Shown: in pieces, positions 2,211 through 4,589 of the stretch
Layout: the number at the start of each line of letters is the position of its first letter
How positions within the stretch are numbered: position 1 is the stretch's first letter
Origin: a virus
IMG/VR virus record: IMGVR_UViG_3300013286_000002
Span: 1 to 42,525 of that record
Direction: 5' to 3' (one strand)
DNA length: 42,525 nt
Made by a program: the position numbers and the translations under genes
Notes under the pieces: generated by a model
What the model was told of the DNA's origin: nothing
The model's database searches: none
Seen by the model: the letters and a program-made list of their open reading frames with translations, nothing else

Positions 2211-2264
2211 GTCTTACAAACAACATCGTGTGTAAATGTGAGTAATTGTGCGTAATTGTAAGAC
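2211..2264. other. Inverted repeat GTCTTACA / TGTAAGAC
   Basis: Two 8-base arms at 2211-2218 and 2257-2264 are exact reverse complements with 38 bases between them. The same word family (TGTCTTAC) recurs at 1278-1285 and five times in 4050-4455, so these may be binding sites of the same factor. Confidence 0.5.
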
Positions 2265-2373
2265 AAAGCATAAACGCCACTGAAATCTTCGGGAATTCTT
2301 GGCCATCATCCACAATGTGAGAGAATCAGAACGATTTTAACGCCCTCCTAGTGGCTCAAATTATGGCAAGAAA

Positions 2374-3880: not shown

Positions 3881-3908
3881 TTGTCATTATCTCTAATTCT
3901 GATACAGA
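3881..3908 (+). promoter_or_regulatory. Candidate promoter for the HTH gene
   Basis: TTGTCA (3881-3886), 16-base spacer, TACAGA (3903-3908). Two TGTCAC words 11 bp apart lie just downstream at 3915 and 3926, before the ATG at 3945, a natural place for an operator. The hexamers are imperfect, so this is tentative. Confidence 0.35.
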
Positions 3909-3914
3909 ATCACC

Positions 3915-4589
3915 TGTCACAACTTTGTCACAGAATGTAATACAATGGGATCACGCATAGCAATAGACCGGGAACAAGTAAGAGCCACATATCTCGCCAC
4001 CGGCTCTCTAAAAGAGGCGGCACAACTTCATGGCATCAAGTACGCCACCGTAAGACAATGGGCTAATCGTGATATGTGGGAGACATCAGGAACCATGACA
4101 AAGCTGATTAAAAAAGCTGATGCAATCCGAGAGATCAAAAGAGAAAAGGGACACAAGGATGCTGTCACTATTTGTCACACTTCGGATGCTTTAGCTGTTT
4201 CAATGGAGGAAAGTAAGAAGAGCTTCCATTCATCAATGGCGATCGGTCTAACGAATGCGGCATCATGTCTTACAGAGTTGGACAACCTGTCGGCGTTAGA
4301 AGCGTCTCGTAAAATGGTAGACCTTGCTAACGCTGGTAAGACAATCTTTGGTATCGGTAGTGACACGGATAAGCCAACGTTGTCACTCAATGTCTTACAG
4401 CTTGGCGTGGACGCTCTGTCTCTGGTACAGCCTACGAGGTAGGCGTTTGTCTTACGCTGTCCCCTCTCGTAAGGAATCCCTTTTTTCGCTGGAGGCCATG
4501 GACGCACACCACCCTAGGGGAGGGAAGGTTGTTCGGTCGTTTTACCGCAAAACCCCTCCACAATTTTTCCTAAAAAAGCCAGAGTGACA
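3915..4589. promoter_or_regulatory. Cluster of phased TGTCAC and TGTCTTAC motifs (candidate pac or operator field)
   Basis: TGTCAC occurs at 3915, 3926, 4163, 4173 and 4381, and its complement GTGACA at 4360 and 4584. TGTCTTAC occurs at 4266, 4391 and 4448, and its complement GTAAGACA at 4050 and 4336. That is twelve short words in 675 bp, several spaced 10 or 11 bp apart (3915/3926, 4163/4173, 4381/4391), which places them on one face of the helix. Within the HTH gene the words fall in different reading frames, so they do not arise from repeated amino acids. This suggests DNA-level selection for protein binding. A packaging (pac) site inside terS is one candidate reading. Confidence 0.6.
3945..4442 (+). 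CDS. HTH DNA-binding protein, candidate small terminase subunit
   Basis: The 165-residue protein has an N-terminal helix-turn-helix at about residues 8-45 (YLATGSLKEAAQLHGIKY then TVRQWANRDMW), followed by helical sequence (residues 85-140) and a short C-terminal tail with LNVLQLG. HTH plus helical oligomerisation region plus short tail is the layout of many TerS proteins, which bind the packaging site and feed DNA to TerL. A transcription regulator is the main alternative, given the divergent promoter region. The gene carries many of the phased TGTC motifs, as pac sites do in terS genes of several headful phages. TerL is about 8 kb away on the circle (38391), so linkage does not settle the case. 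Start: first ATG, no Shine-Dalgarno. Confidence 0.55.
   Translation: MGSRIAIDREQVRATYLATGSLKEAAQLHGIKYATVRQWANRDMWETSGTMTKLIKKADAIREIKREKGHKDAVTICHTSDALAVSMEESKKSFHSSMAIGLTNAASCLTELDNLSALEASRKMVDLANAGKTIFGIGSDTDKPTLSLNVLQLGVDALSLVQPTR

Follow-up and report, generated by a model that had tools for sequence, protein, structure and literature searches.

Short repeated words in and around a candidate small terminase gene form a conserved, probably pac-like module in a group of uncultured viruses

Introduction

It is poorly understood how a small terminase (TerS) locates its own genome. Phage P22 has one short pac site, in gene 3, and phage lambda possesses fixed ends and a cos cut site with neighbouring TerS sites (the cosB R sites). 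The pac site of phage P1 consists of short hexamer repeats which carry Dam GATC sites, lie within the terS-like gene pacA and flank the cut.

The locus described here was found in an IMG/VR virus record of 42.5 kb, which was analysed over its whole length and is referred to as the window. A preliminary description had noted twelve copies of two short words, TGTCAC and TGTCTTAC, across a candidate terS gene, and had named three possible explanations, namely a pac site, an autoregulatory operator and a replication origin. The question raised by this locus is whether the words form a genuine module, and if so, which protein reads them and for what purpose.

Results

Two words are concentrated in and around the candidate terS gene

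All twelve words were recovered at the coordinates first reported, seven of them being TGTCAC and five TGTCTTAC (Table 1). Just three further copies of TGTCAC are present in the other 41.8 kb of the window. Outside the region TGTCTTAC occurs at 1278 and 2258 only, as originally described, giving a total of seven in the window compared to 0.85 expected. Likewise, the pairs 3915/3926, 4163/4173 and 4381/4391, for which a distance of one helical turn had been claimed, are spaced by 11, 10 and 10 bp, and words within the gene (offsets of 218, 228, 321, 436 and 446 from the ATG) fall in all three reading frames.

Table 1. Positions of the module and of related features in the window.
Feature	Position	Strand	Remarks
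Candidate terS, 165 aa: N-terminal HTH, helical middle, C-terminal tail	3945..4442	+	
U sites, TGTCAC at 3915 and 3926, 11 bp apart	3915..3931	+	Conserved at about -31 in relatives
Degenerate third U unit TGTAATAC	3937		
Possible terS promoter TTGTCA-18-CAGAAT, directly before U sites	3881..3910	+	Weak, 9/12 matches
I sites, TGTCAC at 4163 and 4173, 10 bp apart	4163..4178	+	
TGTCAC	4360..4365	-	
TGTCAC (4381) and TGTCTTAC (4391), 10 bp apart	4381..4398	+	Same positions in L008, L020
TGTCTTAC	4050..4057	-	
TGTCTTAC	4266..4273	+	
TGTCTTAC	4336..4343	-	Position retained in many relatives
TGTCTTAC directly after terS	4448..4455	+	Opens 3' array, longer in relatives
D block: AAGGAATCCCTTTTTT (4471-4486), GACGCACACC (4501-4510), AT-rich CAATTTTTCC	4471..4589	+	
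D site GTGACA, end of D block (TGTCAC on minus strand)	4584-4589		
terL, 562 aa	38391..40079	+	Motif reading from alignment
Second, smaller cluster: CGTCTTAC and TGTCTTAC (-), units of ~10 bp, convergent intergenic region	2211..2265	.	

In an unbiased scan of all words, TGTCAC was the most region-enriched 6-mer of the window (seven inside, three outside) and TGTCTTAC the most region-enriched 8-mer (five inside, two outside). When eight non-redundant relatives were pooled (7.6 kb in the region versus 94 kb outside), 42 copies of TGTCAC were located inside and 14 outside; the corresponding numbers for TGTCTTAC were 50 and 15. Codon-preserving shuffles, the check that had been proposed along with the first description, were exceeded by both words in terS. 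The window gene contains four copies of TGTCTTAC (0.52 expected; p<=0.0005) and four of TGTCAC (1.09 expected; p<=0.0085). For nine pooled terS variants the values were 23 versus 4.1 (TGTCTTAC; maximum of 2000 shuffles, 11) and 19 versus 6.6 (TGTCAC; maximum of 2000 shuffles, 15), i.e. a 3- to 6-fold excess of words remains within terS. In 350 bp of 3' noncoding DNA, 25 copies of TGTCTTAC were present compared to 0.125 expected, an approximately 200-fold excess. The word cluster is real and far beyond chance.

The consensus around TGTCTTAC is tTGTCTTACa, and the site is sharp given that TGTCTTA was followed by C in 78 of 78 collected occurrences. Among same-strand sites at most 35 bp apart across variants, 12 of 44 pairs were spaced by 10-11 bp (nominal Rayleigh p ~1e-5, relatedness having been removed only in part). 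This phasing holds for TGTCAC-TGTCAC and TGTCAC-TGTCTTAC pairs, and no clear phasing was seen for same-strand TGTCTTAC-TGTCTTAC pairs across variants. The words had been regarded as two related types; they are instead separate kinds of site which are inherited independently of each other.

The gene most likely encodes a small terminase

The product of the gene at 3945..4442 matched PHROG terminase small subunit families (E 9e-6 to 1e-4) and Pfam Terminase_5 (21.0 bits, cutoff 20.3), with the family match spanning the HTH part only. By these similarities the gene is most likely terS. An AF2 model predicted an HTH and a helical hairpin but was poor (mean pLDDT 69, pTM 0.34), and a Foldseek search with it gave no significant match, the best viral matches including TerS at E > 0.04. 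The large subunit gene terL, ~8 kb upstream of terS in circular order, encodes a Walker A motif (GCAAAGKT), a Walker B motif (VDEAA) and nuclease motifs (DPAFTTDGDD, DATG and SPDRADAL). Promoter-like matches for terS were not clearly more numerous than in shuffles.

Relatives of TerS and TerL were found on uncultured contigs only. Searches of 50,697 deposited phage records with the TerL or TerS protein yielded no relative, and a TerL search of bacterial genomes for prophage hosts gave no match.

TGTCAC occupies conserved places and covaries with the HTH of TerS

Comparison of ~33 distinct TerS variants (34 rows including one truncated duplicate) revealed TGTCAC, or TGTAAC, at three conserved places termed U, I and D; some variants do not have all three. 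Site U is located ~30-39 bp before the terS start, often with a partner 8-21 bp further on. In the window the U sites are at -30 and -19 from the ATG, which is the start of the candidate regulated gene terS itself. Site I lies ~206-230 bp into terS (about +226). Site D is found at ~+600 to +830 or beyond, in most cases on the minus strand. Site I is read as TGT CAC (Cys-His) in the window and as gTG TCA C in L042, L074, L150 and L020; its retention despite changed frame and amino acids indicates that the DNA is conserved, not the protein. TGTAAC replaces TGTCAC at the same places in L018, L083, L151 and L174, and the D site is GTTACA in L151 and L036. TGTCTTAC is likewise clustered within and behind terS in every close relative, at positions that are only partly shared, as would be expected of binding sites with turnover. 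The location of the words, in and beside terS, is that expected of the pac site of a headful phage.

Three types of HTH were distinguished in TerS. The module contained TGTCAC in 30 of 30 variants of types I and II and in none of the three of type III (1 in 5456 under independence, which does not hold among relatives). Within type I, variants with D, E or Q after the recognition helix had 37 TGTCAC and 3 TGTAAC sites, compared to 7 and 11, respectively, in those with another residue (Tyr, Leu, Phe) at this position (Fisher p 3e-5 for residue versus fourth base of the word, without phylogenetic correction). The link is not strict because L150 and L178, both with Tyr after the recognition helix, carry TGTCAC. 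Such covariation is the trace which a direct HTH-DNA contact would leave.

Genome-wide avoidance of TGTCAC was considered as a further signal and rejected. Observed/expected ratios outside the module were 0.35-0.40 (rank 237 of 2016 hexamers over whole genomes) and the same in HTH-III and Tyr genomes; being modest and independent of HTH type, the avoidance is not specific. CACTGT is depleted as well (observed/expected 0.1-0.3). In 16 near-complete genomes, including the window, GGWCC-containing hexamers are avoided ~30- to 250-fold, as are CCWGG-containing hexamers and many palindromes, which looks like strong restriction-site avoidance.

The TGTCTTAC array is associated with the C-terminal half of TerS

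The TGTCTTAC array was found only together with a TerS C-terminal type of the form ..SSMA..AGKTIFG(I/L)G.., whatever the HTH type. In L020 an HTH of type II is joined to a C-terminal half that hardly differs from that of L008, and TGTCTTAC is kept; L031 possesses HTH III and is without TGTCAC, yet has five copies of TGTCTTAC in the stretch scanned; and HTH-I relatives with another C-terminal type are without the array. These cases weaken the idea that the HTH reads TGTCTTAC. Comparison of L019 and L020 with L008, in which the HTH half is exchanged and the C-terminal half almost identical, displays a natural domain swap. Between eight genomes with and eight without the array, the ORFs with perfect presence/absence were readings of the terS 3' half only, and no other gene tracked TGTCTTAC in these 16 near-complete genomes. 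As the sites lie in and after the terS 3' half, DNA linkage could be part of the cause of this association.

In the U arrays before terS, several variants have TGTCTTAC at a distance of one or two helical turns from TGTCAC, and both codes may therefore serve one assembly. On this basis one may tentatively propose two independently exchangeable codes, TGTCAC being read by the HTH and TGTCTTAC by the C-terminal half of TerS or by a partner bound to it. It is equally conceivable, though again short of probable, that TGTCAC alone belongs to TerS and that TGTCTTAC is the site of another protein, from host or phage, its clustering at terS serving DNA looping, protection or segregation, which is compatible with the assignment of TGTCAC to TerS. 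Retention of TGTCTTAC with other HTH types (L020, L031) and the occurrence of TGTCTTAC repeats beside ribbon-helix-helix-like genes on unrelated contigs speak for such a binder; its helical spacing to TGTCAC and the failure of any other phage gene to track it speak against.

Apart from the terS family, triplets of TGTCTTAC in the viral collection were mostly tandem repeats or on unrelated contigs. Among the latter, L128, L129 and L131 (also L133 and L142) carry at least three spaced TGTCTTACa repeats; these end directly at the start of an ORF which by eye resembles a ribbon-helix-helix protein. A literature search for the word TGTCTTAC gave no relevant paper among those listed.

A conserved noncoding block follows terS

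The DNA 3' of terS contains a block with the layout AAGGAATC..GACGnnCACC..CAATTTTTCC..GTGACA. In an alignment of 23 variants GACGnnCACC was invariant and CAATTTTT-like parts were present. The block is confined to the neighbourhood of this terS family: 56 of 61 occurrences adjoin such a gene, and the other five are on records cut between terS and the block. Each of 16 near-complete genomes has exactly one. As to structured RNA, tRNA was the only Rfam match above the curated score.

Contig ends and GC skew

In relatives the sequences at the two window ends are contiguous, in the order DnaB-SSB-small genes-terS. Contigs of the family start or break at many different points, in keeping with permuted DNA, although this is no proof. 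Three of ~22 near-complete contigs break in the module, a weak excess. In one full-length contig, G001 (the contig of L010; bases 1 and 41838), both ends are inside the module with ~94 bp missing between them; it starts at GTAGGACGCACACC of the block, and one end is 4 bp from GACGCACACC. The other full-length contigs in which the block was found read through it. A physical terminus deduced from contig ends was discarded, the end rate downstream of terL being about equal in the module and in the variable small-gene region.

The cumulative GC skew has its minimum within ~240 bp of the block (4501 in the window) in 16 of 16 genomes, and this switch marks the block as the boundary to the late genes. 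Such a turn is what favours the origin option of the preliminary description; in an origin, the words would be iterons for an initiator and the AT-rich part of the block, CAATTTTTCC, an unwinding element; the second TGTCTTAC cluster with its 10-bp repeats in a convergent intergenic region (2211-2265) points in the same direction. We consider an origin unlikely, because the TGTCAC words change with the HTH of a protein resembling TerS, sites U and I lie at the terS start and inside the gene, respectively, and no initiator gene tracks the words among the 16 genomes. Moreover, the late genes begin where the skew switches, and transcription could be the cause of the switch.

The units of the second cluster read attGTnnGnn (~10 bp). 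Similar clusters are present 1.2-2.8 kb upstream of terS in L008, L012, L014, L015, L018 and G013; none was seen in G001 and G004. In all, the cluster was found in seven TGTCTTAC-positive variants, but not in every one.

Discussion

The module is real, ordered and conserved, and a TerS-encoded packaging site with an operator is the best supported explanation. We regard it as likely that the region is a pac-like module for packaging initiation and autoregulation which is recognised by the TerS it encodes. This is suggested by the identity of the gene, the word excess, the covariation with the HTH, the frame changes at site I, the conserved and exclusive block, the tracking of the terS 3' half by TGTCTTAC, the position of U beside a weak promoter match, and the SPP1 precedent. 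Points against it are the distance of ~8 kb to terL, the poor AF2 model, which matched no solved TerS, the contig ends, which are not clearly enriched at the module, the exceptions L150 and L178, the modest TGTCAC avoidance that is independent of HTH type, and the skew switch at the block. Of the three options initially offered, pac and operator together are favoured by the HTH covariation, by U at the terS start and by D ending the block; the skew turn is what the origin can set against this.

TerS binding, repression, cleavage and direction are what we infer for this module, in the following way. The HTH of TerS would bind its word, TGTCAC or in some relatives TGTAAC, at U, I and D, and TerS on U, at the start of terS, would repress the gene. 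An oligomer on the phased U, I and D sites may wrap or loop the 0.7 kb of DNA, and the resulting complex would place TerL at the block; for a first cut there, the invariant GACGnnCACC is the leading candidate. From this point packaging would proceed into the late genes. TGTCTTAC would add many contacts at variable positions in the terS 3' half and beyond.

An operator only, i.e. a regulator on the words which controls terS and has no role in packaging, is improbable. It would agree with the helically phased U sites at the terS start and with a protein of HTH type, but an operator needs neither the words inside and after terS, which are the majority, nor a D site that lies as far as 0.8 kb downstream and closes a conserved noncoding block. 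Chance, codon bias or protein repeats can practically be dismissed, since codon and dinucleotide shuffles were exceeded, the words recur with turnover in relatives, and they lie in different frames.

The proposed pac-like module shares with P1 pac the short repeats inside a terS-like gene and differs from it in that TGTCAC and TGTCTTAC are without GATC. As in P22 and lambda, the putative TerS sites are in or near terS and the candidate cut site has such sites as neighbours; unlike in P22 the words are many, and unlike in lambda the contigs of the family break at many places.

In the Bacillus phage SPP1, pac overlaps promoters, the RBS and the start of gene 1 (PMC6316719), and the terminase was reported to repress its own synthesis (in a study cited in PMC6316719). 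The module appears to resemble pac of the Bacillus phages SPP1 and SF6 in its logic: in that system repeats span the promoter and the start of terS and the cut site is flanked by TerS-binding parts (PMC6316719, PMC4737164); a comparable layout, and the autorepression reported there, are proposed here. It differs in its extent, as the sites continue through and beyond terS over 0.7 kb, and in the candidate cut block being after terS. Furthermore, the isolated HTH domain (DBD) of SF6 showed almost no sequence preference (PMC4737164), whereas the words described here covary with the HTH.

As judged from these comparisons of sequence, the locus probably is a packaging site where TerS grips the genome and controls its own gene. 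In this family the HTH and the C-terminal half have each been swapped in nature, and these exchanges match word changes at conserved places, which makes the sequence specificity of TerS directly testable. If the two-code reading is true, the natural HTH and C-terminal swaps would each carry their own DNA code.
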